Shown here one piece after another: positions 9,192 through 54,694 of a stretch of DNA of 64,000 nt (position 1 is its first letter; the number at the start of each line of letters is the position of its first letter). The position numbers were made by a program, and so were the translations under genes. Below the pieces are notes generated by a model. It saw only the letters and a program-made list of their open reading frames with translations. It was not told the DNA's origin and ran no database searches. Location of the stretch: contig NZ_CADDWI010000012.1 in NCBI RefSeq assembly GCF_902809845.1, positions 64,802 through 128,801 of the forward strand. The letters run 5' to 3'. Origin of the DNA: Chelativorans sp. Marseille-P2723 (lineage in GTDB: Bacteria; Pseudomonadota; Alphaproteobacteria; Rhizobiales; Rhizobiaceae).

Positions 9192-9586
9192 TCCTCTCTC
9201 CGTTAGCCGTCCCGCCCGGCTGCCTCTGCGGTCGCCGCGCACAAATGCGATTGTTTTCAACGCTATCACACATAAGCATGGTTAAGAACCGGTTTCAGGA
9301 AATATGGCAATGGCGGCGGAAAAGTGGTCCTATCCCAAAGAAGAGGCGGCAAAGCCTCTGCAACAACCGCTCGATGAACGAGGCTTTCCAAGCTCGAATA
9401 AGATCCGGATTTTCCGCCGTTGCGGTTACTGCAAGCCTGTCGAGCTACAATAACCTCACTCGTTGCCATGAGCCCGCTGCGACATCCTTCTCGCTCATCG
9501 CACTCGCGGCGCCGCGAGGGACGCCGACTGGTAATTTCGCTCGGCTTCCGCCATATAGGCGGCATAGCCGGATGGATCGGAGCCTT
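9192..9586. other. Intergenic region between divergent omp19 and dapF
   Basis: About 395 bases separate the divergent omp19 and dapF starts. The promoters of both must lie here, but no convincing -35/-10 pair, palindrome or RNA gene was recognised. Open frames on both strands look non-coding (Arg/Ser-rich, no family likeness). Confidence 0.5.
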
Positions 9587-11762: not shown

Positions 11763-13208
11763 ATGGCGTTGGGTTTTATCAAGAAGGTTTTCTCTTTCGG
11801 CAAGAAGGAGGTGGAGAAGCAGCCGGAGGAAAGTGCTGCCCAGTCCGAATTGGTGGATGTGGCTGCCCCGCAGAAAGTGCACGAACCATTATCGCCGGCA
11901 CCGTTGACGGAGGATCCGGCGGCTCTTTCCCCATCTCCCAAACCGGAGGAACAGCAGCCTGAAACTCAGGCGCTGGTGGAGCACCCGGAGAGCCTTGACG
12001 CTCCAGCAGAGGCGTTCCCACCCGAAATACCGCAAGGCGTCAAACCGGAGGCGGACGTTTCACAAGCCCCTGACGCCGATGAAGCGCAGGACCCACCCTC
12101 CCTGTCCCTATCGGAGGATCGGATTGACGCGCAGCACGAGGACGAGGGGAAAGGTTCGACACCGCTGCCTGCCGATCTGACACCTTCCGCAGAGCCTTCG
12201 ACGATGGAAGGAACAGACGAGGAGGAAGCGGCAGCGGCTGTCGAGCAGGAAAAGGAAGCCTCGTCCTCGACCCTAGACGCCGAAGAACCACCCAAGCCAT
12301 GGTTCCAGCGCCTGCGTGAGGGTCTTTCGCGGTCCTCCCGCGATCTGCGCGAAAACATTGCAAGCATTTTCCTCAAGCGCAAGCTTGACGAAGATACGCT
12401 GCAGGATCTGGAGGACGTTCTGCTGCGAGCCGACCTTGGACTTGAGACCGCTATGAGCATCACGGACGCCCTCTCCACCGGCCGTTATGGCAAGGACATC
12501 TCTGGTGCCGAGGTGCAGGCTGTGATGGCCGAAGAGATCGAGAAGGTACTTGCGCCAGTGGCACAGCCGCTGGAGCTCGACCTTTCGGTAAAGCCGCATG
12601 TCATTCTCGTGGTCGGGGTCAATGGTACCGGCAAGACCACGACAATTGGCAAGCTGGCAGCAAAGCTCAGACAAGGGGGCCTTTCCGTCATGCTGGCGGC
12701 GGGTGATACTTTCCGTGCGGCTGCCATTGAGCAACTTAAGATCTGGGGAGAGCGGACGGGCTCGGCGGTTGTCGCTTCCCGACTTGGCGCCGATGCGGCG
12801 GGACTTGCCTATGACGCGTTCGAAAAGGCGAAGGCTGCCGGCAGCGATGTGCTTATCATTGACACGGCCGGCAGGCTCCAGAACAGGACCGAGCTAATGG
12901 CGGAATTGGAGAAGATTGTGCGGGTACTGCAAAAACATGATCCGCAGGCTCCCCACACAGTTCTTCAGACGCTGGACGCGACCACCGGGCAGAATGCCCT
13001 TAATCAGGTCGAGATCTTCCGCAATGTTGCGGGCGTCTCGGGCCTGGTCATGACCAAGCTTGACGGCACGGCGCGCGGCGGCATCCTTGTGGCAATCGCC
13101 GCCAAGCACAAGCTGCCTGTCTATTTCATCGGCGTCGGCGAAGGTGTTGACGACCTGGAACCCTTTTCCGCAGGCGATTTCGCCAAGGCGATCGCAGGAG
13201 TTCAATGA
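11763..13208 (+). CDS. ftsY: Signal recognition particle receptor FtsY
   Basis: SRP receptor GTPase that docks ribosome-SRP complexes at the inner membrane; 481 residues. An amphipathic N-terminus (MALGFIKKVFSFGKK) is followed by a long acidic A-domain to about residue 175, then the NG domain: P-loop GVNGTGKTT from residue 285, DTAGR, and TKLDGTARGG. It starts 14 bases after mtaB and is directly abutted by yciB (TGA then GTG), so the four genes from dapF form one unit. Confidence 0.97.
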   Translation: MALGFIKKVFSFGKKEVEKQPEESAAQSELVDVAAPQKVHEPLSPAPLTEDPAALSPSPKPEEQQPETQALVEHPESLDAPAEAFPPEIPQGVKPEADVSQAPDADEAQDPPSLSLSEDRIDAQHEDEGKGSTPLPADLTPSAEPSTMEGTDEEEAAAAVEQEKEASSSTLDAEEPPKPWFQRLREGLSRSSRDLRENIASIFLKRKLDEDTLQDLEDVLLRADLGLETAMSITDALSTGRYGKDISGAEVQAVMAEEIEKVLAPVAQPLELDLSVKPHVILVVGVNGTGKTTTIGKLAAKLRQGGLSVMLAAGDTFRAAAIEQLKIWGERTGSAVVASRLGADAAGLAYDAFEKAKAAGSDVLIIDTAGRLQNRTELMAELEKIVRVLQKHDPQAPHTVLQTLDATTGQNALNQVEIFRNVAGVSGLVMTKLDGTARGGILVAIAAKHKLPVYFIGVGEGVDDLEPFSAGDFAKAIAGVQ

Positions 13209-13856
13209 GTGGCTGATAACAGGATCCTTGAGCGCGAACCGTCCGCTCCCAAGCGCAAAGAAATGAACCCGCTGCTCAAGCTTGCGCTGGAACTCGGGCC
13301 CCTCATGATCTTCTTCTTCGCCAATGCGCGCGGAGATCAGCTTGCGGACCGATTTCCCGCACTATCCACCATGGGCGAGCCGATCTTCATCGCCACGGGT
13401 CTATTCATGGTGGCGACAGCAGTTTCCCTTGCCGTCTCATGGATGCTCGTGCGCAGCCTGCCCGTAATGCCGCTGGTTTCCGGTATCGTGGTCTTTGTTT
13501 TCGGCGCTCTGACGCTGTTTCTTCAGAACGATACGTTCATTAAGATGAAACCTACCATCGTCAACACGCTCTTTGGAACGATCCTTCTGGTCGGCCTCGG
13601 CTTCGGCCAGTCGCTACTGGGCTATGTCTTCGATTCCGCCTTCAAGCTGGATGCCGAAGGATGGCGAAAGCTCACCTTGCGCTGGGGCGTATTCTTTCTC
13701 GTGCTGGCCGCCATTAACGAGGTGGTCTGGCGTTCCTTCTCCACCGATTTCTGGGTAGCCTTCAAGGTGTGGGGAATCATGCCCATCACCATTCTCTTCA
13801 CCATGAGCCAGATGCCGCTCATCATGCGGCATTCGCTGGAGGAGAAAGGGCAATAG
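13209..13856 (+). CDS. yciB: Inner-membrane septation protein A (YciB/IspA)
   Basis: Intracellular septation protein family, 215 residues with about five or six membrane segments and the family motif [15 protein letters not shown]. The GTG start immediately follows the ftsY stop; ATG at 13264 ([13 protein letters not shown]) is an alternative that removes a charged N-terminal extension. Members are thought to act in envelope maintenance and septation; the molecular activity is not known. Confidence 0.92.
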
Positions 13857-16094: not shown

Positions 16095-16754
16095 TCAACC
16101 GAAACGCCAGACCGTCGTCCGCTTCACCTCGGCATCCTCCAGAACACGCGTCACCGGCACGCAATAGGTAGCAAGCGGCAACAGCCGTTCCTTGGGAAGG
16201 TAAGCGCGGCCCGGATCGCCAACCAGAACGTCGGTGCCTGCCTGGGCAAGGGCGGCAAACCATTCTTCCAGACGCGCCGCGAACGCCCGGTCATAAAAGA
16301 CATCGCCCGCCAGCAAGACATCGCAGGATTGCTGCGCACCTACCAGATCATCAGCAACAATTTCAAAGGCCACATCGTTCGCCACCATGTTCAACTGGCA
16401 GGCGACCGCAGAGAATGGATCGGTATCCGCTGCTCTGACCAGTCTAGCGCCAGCAATGCAGGCCGCCACCGCTCCAAGCCCGGACCCGGCGGCGAAGTCG
16501 AGCACACGCTTGCCCGCTACCGTCTCAGGATGGTCGAGAATATAGCGGGCGAGGCCCTGCCCGCCCGCCCAGGCGAAAGCCCAGAAGGGCGGCGGCAGGC
16601 CTATTTCATCGAGCTCTTCCTCCGTTTTCTGCCAGAGTCCGTGTGCCTCATCCGCAAGATGCAGCATGATCTCCGGCACGTGCGGCGGGGCAGCAAGCGT
16701 CGTGTTCGCCAGTATGAAGGCACGGCCTTCGGCAACATCCAGTTTGTGCGTCAC
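16095..16754 (-). CDS. ETFB-type protein lysine methyltransferase (class I SAM)
   Basis: SAM-dependent methyltransferase of 219 residues: motif I VLDFAAGSGLGAVA, a second motif with AADTDPFSA, and LLAGDVFYD. The sequence resembles METTL20/ETFBKMT, whose bacterial homologues methylate the electron-transfer flavoprotein beta subunit and a ribosomal protein. The GTG start at 16754 overlaps the stop of the EVE gene (GTGA); a longer upstream frame is a shadow of that gene. The family call rests on overall likeness, so the substrate is inferred. Confidence 0.8.
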   Translation of the reverse strand: MTHKLDVAEGRAFILANTTLAAPPHVPEIMLHLADEAHGLWQKTEEELDEIGLPPPFWAFAWAGGQGLARYILDHPETVAGKRVLDFAAGSGLGAVAACIAGARLVRAADTDPFSAVACQLNMVANDVAFEIVADDLVGAQQSCDVLLAGDVFYDRAFAARLEEWFAALAQAGTDVLVGDPGRAYLPKERLLPLATYCVPVTRVLEDAEVKRTTVWRFG

Positions 16755-17179
16755 GGTGCCTTGTCGAGGCCGCCCATGCGGCAGATTTCCTTCCATTCCG
16801 CCTCGCTTACGGGCTGCACGGAAAGACGAGAATTGTTGACTAGAACCATATCCTTGAGCTTCGGGGTCGCCTTGATCTCCTCCAACGTGACCGGCTTGGG
16901 CATATCCTGCACTGCGCGGACGTCGACACACTCCCAGCGCGGGTCATCGGTCGTCGAGTCGGGATGGGCCTCAGCGCAGACCTCGACAATGCCGACGATG
17001 CTTTTTTCCTTCACCGAGTGATAGAAGAAGCCCAGGTCGCCCAGCTTCATCGCGCGCATATTGTTGCGCGCCTGGTAGTTGCGCACGCCGTCCCATTCCG
17101 CGCCTTTCGAGCCCTGCTGCTTCTGCATTTCCCACGACCAGGTTTCAGGCTCGGACTTGAACAGCCAATAGGCCATCAC
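16751..17179 (-). CDS. EVE-domain protein (PUA-like)
   Basis: 142-residue single-domain EVE protein similar to human thymocyte nuclear protein 1: MAYWLFKSEPETWSW at the start, the WDGVRNYQARNNMR pocket region, and GFFYHS. EVE domains are PUA-like readers of modified bases in DNA or RNA. Its ATG overlaps the yciI-like stop (ATGA) and its stop overlaps the methyltransferase start, so the three are coupled. Confidence 0.9.
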   Translation of the reverse strand: MMAYWLFKSEPETWSWEMQKQQGSKGAEWDGVRNYQARNNMRAMKLGDLGFFYHSVKEKSIVGIVEVCAEAHPDSTTDDPRWECVDVRAVQDMPKPVTLEEIKATPKLKDMVLVNNSRLSVQPVSEAEWKEICRMGGLDKAP

Positions 17180-17497: not shown

Positions 17498-18481
17498 TCA
17501 GCCGGTCTCGCTCTTCAGCGGTCTGGCGAGGAAAGCATGCATGGTCGCCTCAACCGTGAGGCGGCCTTCAAGTATTCCGGTCACCGCTTCGATGATCGGT
17601 GCATCGAGCCCTCTTTCGCCGGCAATCCGCGCTGCGATGCCTGCCGTGAAGACGCCTTCGGCGAGCGGCAGCCCTTCAACACTTTCGCCTCGCCCTAGCG
17701 CCATGCCATAGGCGAAATTCCTCGATTGCGCCGAACTGCAGGTAAGGATGAGATCGCCCAGACCGGAAAGGCCCATCAGCGTCTCCGATTGTGCTCCGAA
17801 GGCTTTCCCAACTCGTCTCAACTCAACGAAGCCGCGCGTCGTTATGGCCGCGACTGCGCTGGCACCGAGCCCTGCTCCGCTTGTCGCGCCCGCAGCGATG
17901 GCCAGCACATTCTTGAGCGCGCCGCCCATCTCCACGCCCGCCAGGTCGTCGCTTGAATAGCAGCGCAGGTTGGGTGCGGAAAGCTTCTCGGCAAGACTTG
18001 CAGCAAACGTCGCCTCGCTCGCGGCGACGGTAACCGCAGTGGGAAGACCGCGCGCCACATCCGCAGCAAAGCTCGGACCAGAGAGGGTTGCAAGGGGATT
18101 TTCGGGCAGAACCTGGCGGGCGACTTCGGACATGCGCTGCCCCGTTTCCCGCTCAATGCCTTTTGCGCATAGCACCACAGGCACATTTGGCGCGAGCACG
18201 GGCCGGGCGGCAGATAGAACACCCCTCATGGCTTGTGCCGGAACCACGGCAAGCACACAATCCGCCCCGGCCAAAGCAGCGTCCATGTCGTCGAGCGCAG
18301 CTAGGCGTGGCTCAAGAGACACAGCCGGTAGATAGCGGCTGTTTACATGCGCGTGAGTGATCTCATGCGCCAATGCCGCGTCTCGGGTCCACAGCACAAC
18401 CTTGTGGCCGGCACGCGCCATGGTCAGCGCGAGCGCGGTGCCCCAGGCTCCGGCTCCCAGAACCGCGATCGACCAGCTCAT
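17498..18481 (-). CDS. gpsA: NAD(P)H-dependent glycerol-3-phosphate dehydrogenase
   Basis: Reduces dihydroxyacetone phosphate to sn-glycerol 3-phosphate for phospholipid synthesis; 327 residues. The Rossmann [10 protein letters not shown] is at residues 8-17, the catalytic Lys lies in [12 protein letters not shown], and [12 protein letters not shown] marks the C-terminal helical domain. The ATG overlaps the tsaD stop by four bases. Confidence 0.96.
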
Positions 18482-19566
18482 GCCTTGGCTCCACGTTTGC
18501 CAGCGCCGATGACAGGCGCGCTTTGTTCATCGAGCGGCCACCGTGGACGGGGAGCAAAAGCAAGACCATCCGATGGCACCATGTCCCTTTCCAGCCGCTC
18601 TAGGGCCGCCCAGGCGATCATCGCGGCATTGTCGCCGCAAAGTTCGGGCGGCGGTGCGACAAGCCGGAAGCCTTCACGCCGGCAAAGTTCTTCCAAGGTC
18701 CGGCGGACCGTTGCATTGGCTGCCACCCCGCCCGCGACGACAAGCGCAGGGTCTACTAGCTCAGGATAATCCGCGCGAAACCGCGAAAAGCTCCGCGCCA
18801 CGCGGTCCGAGAGCGTTTCCGCTACTGCCATCTGGAAGGAGGCGCAGATGTCCGCGATATCGGTGTTCGACAGCGGCGCCAGTTCGCTCGCCAACCGCCG
18901 CACCGCGGTCTTAAGTCCTGAGAAGGAGAAATCCGGACGTTTCTCGCCCTTGAGTGGGCGGGGAAAGGCGAAGCGGGTAGGATCGCCCTTTCTAGCTGCC
19001 TTTTCAACGCTCGGGCCTCCCGGATAGGGCAGGCTAAGCAGCTTTGCCGTCTTGTCGAAAGCTTCCCCGAGCGCGTCGTCGATGGTCGTCGCCCAACGTT
19101 CGTAACGGCCGATGCCGGCGACATGCACGATCTGCGTATGCCCTCCGGAGACAAGAAGCAGGAGATAGGGAAAATTCAGCCTGTCGGTAAGGCGCGCGGT
19201 AAGCGCGTGCCCCTCCAGATGGTTGACGGGCAGAAATGGCTTGCCACACGCAGCCGCTAGCGCCTTGCCGGTAGTAAGCCCTACGATCAGCCCGCCTATG
19301 AGGCCCGGCCCCGCGGTCGCGGCAATCCCGTCTACATCGCCGAGCGCAAGGCCCGCCTCATCGAGGGCCGCCTCGATAACGCCGTCCAGCGCCTCCACAT
19401 GGGCGCGCGCGGCGATTTCCGGCACAACGCCGCCAAAGGCCGCATGCTCCTTGATCTGGCTCAGGATGACATTGGAAAGAATCTTTGGTGCGCCGTCGGC
19501 ATCGCGGCCGACAATGGCTGCGGCCGTTTCGTCGCAACTCGTCTCGATGCCCAGCACACGCGTCAT
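18478..19566 (-). CDS. tsaD: tRNA t6A synthesis protein TsaD
   Basis: Threonylcarbamoyl transferase subunit of the t6A37 pathway, 362 residues, ASKHA fold. Visible are [12 protein letters not shown] at the N-terminus, the metal-binding His pair in HLEGH (about 116 and 120), VSGGHTQ, and [10 protein letters not shown] near the C-terminus. t6A is the substrate of MtaB, encoded about 7 kb away. It is the first gene of the minus-strand chain and is divergent from hemC, with 77 bases between. Confidence 0.97.
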
Positions 19567-19643
19567 TCGGTCCGGCCTTCCATTGTTGCCGAGAGGTTTC
19601 GTCCCAGGTAGTTAGGTATGCCGGTTAGCACGGACATGACAGC

Positions 19644-20573
19644 ATGCAAACTGATGTGGTGAGAATCGGAACGCGCGGTAGCGCACTTGCTTTGGCGCAG
19701 GCAGCTGAAACGCGCGCGCGTTTGATGGCGGCGCACGACCTGCCGGAAGAGGCATTTGAGATTGTCGTCATCAGCACCACTGGTGACCGCATTCAGGACC
19801 GTGCCTTGGCACAGGCCGGCGGCAAGGGCCTTTTCACGAAGGAGATCGAGGAGGCGCTCATTGATGGCCGCATCGATCTTGCCGTACATTCCTCCAAGGA
19901 TATGCCGACCGTACTTCCCGAGGGGCTGGAGCTTTCAGCCTTTCTGGAGCGTGAGGATGTGAACGACGTCTTCATCGGCAGGACAGGAGGCGGGCTTACG
20001 GACCTTCCCCAGGAAGCGCGCCTAGGAACGTCGTCCTTGCGCCGCCAGGCGCTGGCTTTGCGGATAAGACCAGACCTGAAAGTTAGTGTTTTCCGTGGCA
20101 ATGTGCAGACCCGGCTGCGCAAGCTTGAAGAGAATGTCGTAGATGGCACCATGCTTGCCCTTGCGGGCCTTAAGCGACTGAAGCTGGAGCATGTCGGGAC
20201 GGAAGTTCTGGACATCTCGGATTTTCCTCCAGCTCTTGGGCAAGGGGCGATCTGCATCGAAACGCGGGTGAATGACAAGCGTATCTGGGAACTGGTGCAA
20301 GCGATCCATCACGCTGAAACCGGGGTCGCGCTGGCATGCGAGCGCGCTTTTCTCGCCGCTCTCGATGGTTCCTGCCGAACGCCCATGGCCGGTTATGCAC
20401 AAGTGGACGGCGATCGCATCCACTTTTCCGGCATGATTCTGACACCCGACGGCAAGGAGGTGCATGAGATAACGGGCGAGGGCAGCCTGATCGAGGCATG
20501 CGAGATAGGCACGCAAGCGGGCACCCGCATACGTGAGAGGGCCGGAAGCCGGTTCTTCGAAAGCTGGAGCTGA
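19644..20573 (+). CDS. hemC: Hydroxymethylbilane synthase (porphobilinogen deaminase)
   Basis: Builds the linear tetrapyrrole from four porphobilinogens; 309 residues. The [12 protein letters not shown] start, the VHSSKDMPT active-site loop and the dipyrromethane-cofactor cysteine C244 (DGSCRTP) are present. It is followed by hemD after one base, so the two haem enzymes are cotranscribed. Confidence 0.97.
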
Positions 20574-26023: not shown

Positions 26024-26185
26024 AAAGACGGTCTGCGCCTCGCGACAGGAATTCTTTTCCCCGGGGCCTTATCGATCCTTGAGGGAGCTGTCCCTGGCCT
26101 CGCTCGTGGGCTTGGTCATACGGCGCCCACCTACATTGTAGGTTCCCGGGATCGAACATTCCATCGGTTGCCGTGGATCGTCTTT
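26024..26185 (+). ncRNA. ssrS: 6S RNA
   Basis: The stretch between the GATase and the 5-formyl-THF cyclo-ligase gene, the standard place of ssrS, folds as a long closed RNA. The ends form a 10-bp helix (AAAGACGGTC at 26024-26033 with GATCGTCTTT at 26176-26185, one G-U pair), and inside are the G/C-rich arms around CCCCGGGGCC and GTTCCCGGGATCG. A -10 box, TATATT (26015-26020), stands just before the 5' end, and a T-rich tract follows the 3' end. 6S RNA mimics an open promoter and binds sigma-70 RNA polymerase. Confidence 0.85.
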
Positions 26186-27759: not shown

Positions 27760-28551
27760 ATGGAATGGCTGCTTTCACAGTTTTATTTCATCAATGACCC
27801 GACCGCGTGGGTGGCGCTGGTCACCCTTGTCGTTCTCGAAATCGTGCTCGGTATCGATAATCTTATTTTCATTTCTATTCTTACCAACAAGCTGCCCAAG
27901 GAAAACCAGAAGTTTGCCCGCAGGCTGGGCATCAGTGGAGCGCTCGTCCTGCGCCTTGCACTGCTTGGCACTATCTCCTTCATCGTTCAGCTTACCACGC
28001 CGATCTTCACCCTCTTCGATCATGGCTTCTCATGGCGCGACATTATCCTGATAGCCGGCGGTCTGTTTCTCGTCTGGAAGGCGACGCGGGAAATACATCA
28101 TTCAGTCGACCCGCATGATTCCAAGGAGGACCTGGTGCGAGCCCCGGTCACGCTTAGCGTGGGCGGTGCGATCGTTCAGATCCTGCTGCTTGACCTGGTC
28201 TTTTCCGTCGACTCCATCATTACGGCCGTAGGCATGACGGACCATCTTCCCATCATGTTCATCGCCGTCATCTCGGCGGTAATGGTGATGCTGATTGCCG
28301 CCGAGCCGCTTTCGCGCTTCATTGCGGCTAATCCCACGGTGGTCATGCTGGCGTTGGGCTTCCTGCTCATGATTGGAATGACACTCATCGCCGACGGCTT
28401 CGGCTTCCATGTTCCGAAAGGTTATGTTTATACCGCCATGGGTTTCTCAGCCATGGTTGAGGGCCTCAACATCATGGCACGCCGCAAAAAATTGCGAGAA
28501 CAGTCGATCCTGGAGGAGCCGAGCCCTCCGAAGGATGACGTGGCAGTGTGA
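27760..28551 (+). CDS. TerC-family integral membrane protein
   Basis: 263 residues with about seven membrane segments and the TerC motifs [12 protein letters not shown] and [16 protein letters not shown], whose Asp residues in the membrane are the family hallmark. TerC proteins have been linked to metal (Mn) export and metallation of secreted proteins. A charged C-terminal tail follows the last membrane segment. Confidence 0.92.
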
Positions 28552-28687
28552 GCCACGCCCGCCTGGAAACACGATGCGAGACCGCCTGCACGATCTGTCC
28601 TCTCGCATCTTCTGGACCTTGCGGCCCATTTTCACTATAAAGCCGGCAATCCAAGACATTTCAGGAAGAAGTCCGACAAGGAGCCCC

Positions 28688-29437
28688 ATGGCCGGTCATT
28701 CCCAGTTCAAAAACATCATGCACCGCAAGGGCCGTCAGGACGCGGCGCGGTCAAAGATCTTTTCCAAGCTTGCCCGTGAGATCACGGTAGCGGCCAAATC
28801 CGGCCTGCCCGATCCGGCGATGAATCCGCGGCTTCGCCTCGCCGTGCAAAACGCCAGAGCCCAGTCCATGCCCAAGGAAAATATCGAGCGCGCCATTAAG
28901 AAGGCGTCTGGGTCGGAGGCGGAAAACTTCGAGGAAGTGCGCTACGAGGGCTATGGTCCTGGCGGCGTGGCGGTGATCGTCGAGGCGTTGACCGACAACC
29001 GCAACCGCACCGCCTCGAACGTTCGCGCCGCCTTTACGAAGGCCGGCGGGTCGCTGGGCGAGACGGGCTCCGTCTCCTTCATGTTCGACCGGGTTGGTGA
29101 GATCCTCTATCCCGCCAGCGCCGGAGATGCCGAAAAGGTGATGGAGGCGGCCATCGAGGCGGGCGCAGAGGACGTCCAATCCGACGAGAACGGCCATGTC
29201 ATCACCTGCGCCTTCGAGGATATTGGCGAAGTGACGACAGCGCTGGAGAGCGCCCTTGGAGAGGCCGAGCAGGTTAAGGCCGTATGGCGCCCGCAAAACG
29301 GTACCCCGGTGGACGAGGAGCGCGCGCAATCGGTGCTGAAGCTGATCGCCGTTCTCGAAGACGACGACGACGTGCAGAACGTCTACGCCAACTTCGAAGT
29401 GGACGACGAGACAATGGCCAAGCTCAGCGCGGCCTGA
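28688..29437 (+). CDS. yebC: YebC/PmpR-family transcription/translation factor
   Basis: 249-residue YebC protein beginning [18 protein letters not shown], with the central [10 protein letters not shown] and [10 protein letters not shown] motifs. The family includes DNA-binding regulators and factors that help ribosomes through proline stretches. The start at 28688 is the conserved one; the frame extends back into terC only by chance. In many rhizobia ruvCAB follows; here a broken SelW-like gene does. Confidence 0.95.
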
Positions 29438-29445
29438 AATCTGCA

Positions 29446-29733
29446 ATGGCCACAGCCTGCCGGGCGACAATCATTTTGTTGCGCTCAATGCAAATGGCTC
29501 CTGCGGGCAGGCTGGATGGCGCAGGAGCTGCTGTCCACCTATGGAACGGAACTGGCCGAAGTAAACCTGCGGCCAGGCTCCGGCGGAATCGTCCAGACAT
29601 TTTGCGCCGAAGAGCTGATCCGGACCGCAAGCGACAGCGGGCTTCCGGATGCTTTCGAGCTCAAGCGGCAATTGCGTGACAGGACAGGATCGCCCCCGAG
29701 CGCGATCTGCGACATCAGGGAAGGGAACCATAA
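29446..29733 (+). pseudogene. Rdx/SelW-like thioredoxin-fold gene broken by two frameshifts
   Basis: Joined over three frames this encodes a small Rdx (SelT/SelW/SelH-type) redox protein: ATG 29446, a CxxC redox motif (CAQC), then WLLRAGWMAQELLSTYG, a central GSGGI, FELKRQLRDR, and an end IAPERDLRHQGREP with stop at 29731-29733. The first break is one extra base at the T4 run 29474-29477, just before the CxxC. The second is a 5-bp tandem duplication, GACAG-GACAG, at 29678-29687. Removing one T and one GACAG copy restores one frame of about 94 codons. Two independent lesions suggest decay, though assembly errors cannot be excluded. Confidence 0.75.
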
Positions 29734-29784
29734 GGCAGGCTCTTTGGGAAAGCCCCTTCCAGCCAGTTGCAGGGAACAGGAGGC

Positions 29785-29829
29785 AAAAAGCCCGCCGAAG
29801 TGGCAGGCCTTTGCACTTCCTCCGGGCTT
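29785..29829 (-). terminator. Rho-independent terminator of rpmE
   Basis: Nested inverted repeats: AAGCCCG (29788-29794) with CGGGCTT (29823-29829), and inside them GAAGTG (29797-29802) with CACTTC (29814-29819). On the minus strand the stem is followed by a T5 tract, so it ends rpmE transcription right at the stop codon. It also separates rpmE from the broken SelW-like gene coming from the other side. Confidence 0.85.
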
Positions 29830-30050
29830 CAGATTCCCAGGCCTTCGTAGCGCTTCTTGAATTTGGAGACACGGCCGCCACGATCAACCAAGGTCTGCTG
29901 GCCGCCTGTCCAGGCCGGATGCGTGGTCGGGTCAATGTCGAGCTGCAGCGTGTCCCCTTCCTTGCCCCAGGTGGAGCGCGTCAAGTACTCCGTGCCGTCC
30001 GTCATGACGACCTTGATCATGTGGTAGTCGGGATGGATATCGGCTTTCAT
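29829..30050 (-). CDS. rpmE: 50S ribosomal protein L31
   Basis: 73-residue L31: [22 protein letters not shown], then the [16 protein letters not shown] segment and a basic end. It has none of the four zinc-binding cysteines of the C+ type, as usual in alphaproteobacteria. It is divergent from the ABC exporter gene and ends in a clear terminator. Confidence 0.97.
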
Positions 30051-30233
30051 GTGTTTTCTCTATCTGTAGTTGCGCAGCGGCCTACGCTGCGGCATCTCGC
30101 CCTTGCATCAAAAACTTGAAGCCACTGCCAAGGAAGGATACGGCTTCGGAAAGGTTTGCGTGCCTATACCTCAGCCACCCGGCCGAGACAAGGCCGGGGA
30201 ATGAATCTTCGGGACATGCTGGAAGGAAACGCC

Positions 30234-53254: not shown

Positions 53255-53962
53255 CTATCCGACCCCCACATAGCGGTGCACCATCTGGGGGTCCGAACGC
53301 AGATGTTCGACCTCTACGGTTTGACGGTTCCGGCCATTCTCAATGAAGGACACGCGGTCCGCCACGGGCAGGACCGCCTCCACCCGCTGCTCCACTAGCA
53401 GGGTCGAGACCCCGCGTTCCCGCAAAGCGGCCACCACTTCCCGAATGCGCGCGATCATGGAAGGCATCAGTCCTTCCGTCGGCTCGTCGAGAAGAAGGAC
53501 GTCCGGCTCCAGGCAGAGTGCCCGGGCCATGGCAAGCATCTGCTGCTCACCGCCTGAAAGCGTGCCTGAACGCTGCCTGAGCCTCTCGCGCAGCACCGGG
53601 AAAAGACCGAGCACCCTTTCCAGGGTATCGCGCCCCTTCCCTCTCGTCATCAGGCCGATTTCTAGATTTTCAGCCACCGTCAGATCGGTGAAGAGGCGCC
53701 GGCCCTGGGGCACGTAGCCGATTCCCGTCTTTGGCACCTCGTATGCCTCAAGCCGGGATATTCGGAGTTCCCTCTTCATGATCCTGCCGGCCCGAACCGG
53801 CACCAGCCCCATGATCGCCTTTAACGCCGTCGTCTTTCCCGCCCCGTTGCGGCCAAGCAGGCAGTGCACCTCGCCGCGCCGCAGTTCCAGCGACAGACCA
53901 TGCAGCACCTGCACTTCGCCATAGGAGCAGTCAATGCTGTCGAGTGTCAATGCGGCTTCCAT
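53255..53962 (-). CDS. ABC transporter ATPase, LivF type
   Basis: 235 residues: Walker A GRNGAGKTT, Q-loop near YVPQGRRLF, signature LSGGEQQML and Walker B VLLLDEPTEGL, with the LivF-type C-terminus. It begins directly after the LivG-type stop (TAG then ATG) and ends the transporter operon. It supplies ATP hydrolysis for a branched-chain-amino-acid-type (HAAT) importer whose substrate here is probably not an amino acid. Confidence 0.93.
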   Translation of the reverse strand: MEAALTLDSIDCSYGEVQVLHGLSLELRRGEVHCLLGRNGAGKTTALKAIMGLVPVRAGRIMKRELRISRLEAYEVPKTGIGYVPQGRRLFTDLTVAENLEIGLMTRGKGRDTLERVLGLFPVLRERLRQRSGTLSGGEQQMLAMARALCLEPDVLLLDEPTEGLMPSMIARIREVVAALRERGVSTLLVEQRVEAVLPVADRVSFIENGRNRQTVEVEHLRSDPQMVHRYVGVG

Positions 53963-54694
53963 CTACGCCCCCAGATAGGCCCGCTGAACGGCCTGATCAG
54001 CGCGGATCTCCTCGGGGTTTCCCTCGGCGAGCACGCGGCCACGCTCCATGACCGTGATGCGGTCGGAAAGCGCCATCACCACATCCATATTATGCTCGAT
54101 GAGCAGTACCGTGGCCTTCCGTCCGATTTCACGCACGAGCGCTATAAAATTCTCGATCTCTCCATCGGAAAGACCCTGCGTCGGCTCATCGAGAATGAGG
54201 AGGCGCGGCCGGAGCGCCAGACCCATCGCCACCTCCAGAAGCCGCTGGTGTCCATAGGAAAGATGGCCAGCTTGCTGATGCGCGTACTGCCCAAGCCCTA
54301 CTTCTTCAAGAGCATGAAGCGCCCGTTCGCGAGAGCTTCCGGACGCCGCTACCTGCCGTGCAGAAGGGCGCTGCGCGGCCGGCGCCACATTGTCAAGGAC
54401 AGTGAGGCCGGGAAAAATGCTGGTAATCTGAAAGGTATATGCAATGCCCGCACGCACGCGCTGATGCGCCGGCAGGCGTGAGATGTCCCGCCCTTCGAAG
54501 AAGACCTTACCCGATGATGCCGGGATTCGTCCGCAAACGAGATTTACGAAGGTGGTCTTGCCGGCGCCGTTCGGGCCGATGATCGCCCGGATCTCTCCGC
54601 AAGGAAGCGCAAAGTCCACCCCGTCGACGGCCCTGAGACCGCCAAAGGCGCAACTCAGGCCCTTCGTGGAAAGCAGCGGCATCATTGCAGCCAT
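53963..54694 (-). CDS. ABC transporter ATPase, LivG type
   Basis: 243 residues: Walker A GPNGAGKTT, an unusual signature LSYGHQRLLEV in place of LSGGQ (typical of LivG-type proteins), and Walker B LLILDEPTQGL. Start at 54694 with GAGAGGTGG upstream overlaps the LivM-type gene by 13 bases; internal ATG 54685 would give the 4-base overlap seen elsewhere in this region. Confidence 0.92.
   Translation of the reverse strand: MAAMMPLLSTKGLSCAFGGLRAVDGVDFALPCGEIRAIIGPNGAGKTTFVNLVCGRIPASSGKVFFEGRDISRLPAHQRVRAGIAYTFQITSIFPGLTVLDNVAPAAQRPSARQVAASGSSRERALHALEEVGLGQYAHQQAGHLSYGHQRLLEVAMGLALRPRLLILDEPTQGLSDGEIENFIALVREIGRKATVLLIEHNMDVVMALSDRITVMERGRVLAEGNPEEIRADQAVQRAYLGA

Follow-up and report, generated by a model that had tools for sequence, protein, structure and literature searches.

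The closest described relatives of the locus studied here are the Rdx family (PF10262) and the SelT-SelW-SelH family (TIGR02174), in their cysteine forms with a CxxC motif. From the family name and the motif, the intact protein is expected to play a redox role, by thiol-disulfide exchange through the CxxC. In PMC1794560, Table 4 counts SelW-like proteins among the families of selenoproteins that sister organisms have lost; the passages concerned do not deal with the present gene. The window, that is the whole 64-kb stretch of DNA analysed, contains an rdx gene that shares with these families a match over profile positions 7-74, the CxxC and the place after yebC. It differs from them in that no usual start codon allows it to be read in a single frame, that a WxRK motif is lost and that it stays below the TIGR02174 cut-off. 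This gene is very probably a real pseudogene reflecting the ordinary loss of a dispensable gene, a conclusion that concerns one genome of the species. The features of the locus are collected in Table 1.

Table 1. Features of the rdx locus in the window
Feature	Position	Strand	Description and basis
yebC	28688..29437	+	Intact gene for 249 aa, ending in TGA; adjoins rdx on its upstream side; translation and YebC identity to relatives
rdx (SelW-like), very probable pseudogene	29446..29733	+	Remains of a gene some 93 codons long; PF10262 match and alignment with 14 orthologues
Extra base relative to orthologues	29472..29480	+	Frame break; T4 run 29474-29477 or its neighbours; pairwise and 14-orthologue alignments
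CxxC motif, CAQC	29480..29491	+	In the Rdx frame; direct reading
ORF of 114 aa	29516..29860	+	From an internal Met codon; carries neither CxxC nor WxRK
Scrambled WxRKR motif	29612..29652	+	Net -3; compared with orthologues, 1 nt is lost near 29620/29621 and 2 nt near 29630-29632
GACAG tandem duplication	29678..29687	+	GACAGGACAG; frame break by +5 nt, which shifts the C-terminal tail to another frame
rpmE	29829..30050	-	Intact ORF, downstream neighbour of rdx; presumably ribosomal protein L31, judging by the protein sequence

By direct reading, the remnant begins with an ATG at 29446 and ends with a TAA at 29731-29733. The frame of this ATG meets a stop at 29677-29679 after 77 codons, and it had no hit at E 0.01 in Pfam or NCBIfam. 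In phase with yebC, the Rdx frame stays open for 140 codons from the yebC stop to 29860 and keeps the CxxC. However, no ATG, GTG or TTG is found in this frame between the yebC stop and the CxxC, and the CAQC falls outside the ATG-started ORF of the Rdx frame. No one open frame contains both a usual start and, downstream of it, the CxxC. In profile searches, the Rdx frame (29438-29857) scored 55.3 bits against PF10262, above the cut-off of 22.6, as compared to 116.1 bits for the copy of a sister genome. With TIGR02174 (cut-off 34.2), it remained below at 29.0 bits whereas the sister's copy was above at 80.6 bits. The initial annotation had noted that automated calling gives only a 114-residue frame devoid of the CxxC. 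This ORF was confirmed; it scored 29.5 bits against PF10262 and had no NCBIfam match. In the mechanically produced ORF list, yebC is extended upstream to 342 aa (28409-29437), running into the end of the terC-like ORF before it (27760-28551); the alignment of the relatives' YebC begins at 28688.

The orthology of the gene was established within the genus. Most of the named members of this genus are Chelativorans, and Nitratireductor luteus is one of the others. A profile search found PF10262 in 15 of the 16 genus genomes, the window's own included. There, the rdx of the window scored 56.4 bits over profile positions 7-74, as compared to 108.5-115.9 bits over positions 1-74, with no internal stops, for the single-frame copies of 14 of the 15 other genomes; the remaining genome had no match. 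In all 14 loci, yebC directly adjoins rdx, 5-50 nt upstream, and an rpmE match lies inside the downstream flank in 10 of them. The gene of the window is thus orthologous to the intact gene by place and by sequence. A search of plasmids returned five records, which matched the yebC part only. More widely, among the best 80 of 522 confirmed loci, both cysteines are kept in 80, a count partly selected by search patterns some of which covered the cysteines, and WxRK is kept in 79. The window has lost this WxRK, a feature observed in these relatives and not part of a published definition of the family. Loss of the ribosome-binding site is not informative, as inspection by eye showed no clear site in at least two of the 14 orthologues.

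The initial annotation had placed two frame breaks in an Rdx gene following yebC, an extra T in a T4 run and a GACAG duplication. A script verified both features, the T4 run at 29474-29477 and GACAGGACAG at 29678-29687. With the strictest of three scoring schemes, a 1-nt insertion was obtained at 29472-29474 in each of six pairwise alignments. One extra base is therefore present as claimed, though it is not assignable to the T4 run alone, as a neighbouring G would serve equally well. The +5 change is one 5-nt block in the multiple alignment, for which three of its 14 orthologues (L013, L015 and L024) were trimmed N-terminally at a chosen internal point, and is split as +4 and +1 in pairwise alignments. 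Looser schemes introduced further small gaps that differed among relatives and were left out of the count.

On comparison of the sequences, the damage is deeper than these two breaks, with a -1/-2 pair scrambling the WxRKR motif. A 1-nt and a 2-nt loss fell within the WxRKR codons in each of the six pairwise alignments and with all three scoring schemes. Over these 41 bases, the two gaps gave 3-6 more matches than one 3-nt gap for all 14 orthologues. The gap positions were 29620/29621 and 29630-29632 in 12 of the 14, the first gap being placed elsewhere with L012 and L024. The gaps were 10-12 nt apart in 12 of the comparisons, and 14 and 20 nt apart in the other two. As a control, in-frame deletions were simulated with the substitution count kept equal, in 300 trials per orthologue; they reached the two-gap gain in 0/300 trials for 12 orthologues and in 1/300 for two. 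The restored 94-codon protein, which the initial annotation had described as having a CxxC and typical ends, has a length of 93 aa plus stop. It is not typical, however, because these two further frame-changing losses deprive it of the WxRK motif. The pair nets -3 and might by itself be tolerated in a working protein, which is a point against a pseudogene.

The alignment with post-yebC orthologues, as the initial annotation had suggested, showed that the breaks are peculiar to the window's rdx in a comparison with 14 relatives. The same breaks in relatives had been named there as grounds for giving up a pseudogene; the opposite was found, the gene being one open frame in all 14 other genus genomes that matched.

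To evaluate the constraint on the protein, the Rdx of the window was aligned after bridging the two reported breaks. The 14 orthologues share 43 invariant residues, 10 of which are changed in this Rdx; the scrambled motif accounts for four of these changes and that of Y to C depends on the bridging, so that five are independent of indels. In leave-one-out controls, some of which retain a near-identical sister, the number of changed residues was 0 for eight genomes, 1 for five and 4 for one. Rdx of the window is 52-62% identical to the 14 orthologues, despite YebC being 87-94% identical; among the 65 of 91 other pairs in the same range of YebC identity, Rdx is 64-89% identical, with a median of 77%, although the scrambled motif inflates the divergence figures of the window's Rdx. 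The terminal branch of the window's Rdx is the longest of 15 on the YebC topology (1.07, the next being 0.55) and reaches 0.91 on the Rdx tree itself (next 0.29), as compared to a YebC branch of 0.022. The ratio of differences at codon positions 1 and 2 to those at position 3 was 1.04-1.32 between the window and its relatives. In 90 of the 91 other pairs, one being dropped for having fewer than 15 third-position differences, its median was 0.67 and its maximum 1.12, so that the two ranges overlap. It should be kept in mind that the 14 orthologues are related and that their agreement does not equal 14 independent tests. Overall, the gene carries more than one disabling change and shows relaxed constraint. 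Third-position differences still nearly equal those at the first and second positions together, and the CxxC and much of the sequence survive. The decay is therefore not advanced; it appears genuine, though not of long standing.

Local sequencing or assembly errors that broke an intact rdx, which the initial annotation had set beside a recent pseudogene, are an unlikely explanation. The draft assembly consists of 13 contigs, and sequencing errors commonly affect a base of a short homopolymer. However, such errors do not readily account for a 5-nt tandem duplication and a -1/-2 pair within 288 bases, nor for the replaced invariant residues and the long Rdx branch. Moreover, the window was aligned with ORFs of at least 80 codons taken from 80, 60 and 60 kb of three sister genomes, a comparison that covers mainly 0.3-32 kb, about half of its length, with shorter ORFs, including rpmE, excluded. 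Greedy selection of best matches gave 37 stretches, 32 of them without any stop. The other five, with 1-3 stops, are explained by open readings or overlaps. Three of them (16101-17177, 17507-18847 and 18481-19689) give open readings with shorter ORFs from other relatives (16754-17176, 17507-18475 and 18481-19566), and two (13124-13486 and 29737-30168) are other-frame stretches over open genes. For rdx, the fraction of the relative's ORF that was covered was 0.54, 0.73 and 0.75 in the three comparisons, the lowest value being obtained with an ORF (from G009) that extends upstream past the usual start. Besides rdx, five of the 37 stretches had a coverage of 0.71 or less. One of these, 27760-28506, is full-length with two other relatives, and the others (9434-9586, 26028-26156, 53330-53911 and 53999-54631) are weak, short or paralogous matches. 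Since the replacements and the further indels concentrate in rdx while the best-scoring readings of the neighbouring genes are open, a general assembly error is disfavoured and, of the two initial possibilities, the pseudogene is the well-supported one.

A remodelled functional protein, made from the 140-codon Rdx frame by stop read-through or from a non-standard start, would agree with the phase of this frame with yebC, its openness and its CxxC. This reading appears very improbable, as the frame offers no usual start upstream of the CxxC, WxRK is lost though nearly all the relatives' loci considered above keep it, the tail is out of frame past the duplication and conserved residues are replaced. 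Low-level synthesis of a YebC-Rdx fusion by read-through of the yebC TGA, with the CxxC kept and a new C-terminal tail, is extremely unlikely. Programmed ribosomal frameshifting near the T4 run, which lies between the ATG and the CxxC with the Rdx frame open downstream, has hardly any likelihood of yielding a working Rdx protein, as the 14 genus orthologues are single-frame here and lack the extra base, leaving no common recoding site, and as the later breaks and the lost WxRK would persist; the doubt first cast on programmed slippage therefore holds.

Loss of rdx was also observed elsewhere. The genome of one sister species (G013) has no PF10262 match at E 0.001. Its yebC and rpmE ORFs are separated by 129 bp (L125 2251-2379), in which no significant rdx remnant was found (best E 0.75 in a small search). 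G013 and the window's genome have in common the loss of rdx at the yebC-rpmE site and differ in that G013 has no significant remnant. By eye, the gap in G013 contains a GC-rich inverted repeat with T residues after it, resembling a terminator. Genome G107, from another genus of the family, has a broken-looking rdx directly after yebC (L127 1436-1716). As in the window, no usual start precedes the place of the CxxC and the tail is in another frame. In contrast, the second Cys of the CxxC is replaced in G107, and its rdx passes TIGR02174 at 44.1 bits. The G107 gene looks independently broken, on less firm grounds than the rdx of the window. A set of 297 genomes of the family, taken from a larger group, comprised 203 with a PF10262 match and 94 without; when completeness of 90% or more and contamination of 5% or less were required, a match was present in 196 of 273. 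By eye, just two of the 203 matches, those of the window's genome and of G107, were weaker than E 1e-26.

The pseudogene in the window can be accounted for as follows. The ancestor would have had the yebC-rdx arrangement with an intact Rdx/SelW-like CxxC protein. Selection would have lapsed on the branch leading to this species, after the split from the sisters that kept rdx. Frame-changing indels would then have occurred, which by the simplest alignment are +1, -1, -2 and +5, together with replacements at conserved residues and the loss of the WxRK motif. The order of these events, relaxed selection as their cause and the absence of a working product are inferred. No other PF10262 match was found at E 0.001 in the 3.77-Mb genome, which is 99.8% complete. 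Because there is no second copy, rdx function has probably been lost in this genome.

In practice, the 114-residue ORF should carry a pseudogene label. Beyond this label and the suggested dispensability of the protein, the finding changes little. The rdx of the window would represent a partly decayed intermediate between the species with an intact rdx and the one that has none at the same site. Overall, the data suggest that the SelW-like protein is dispensable in the group.
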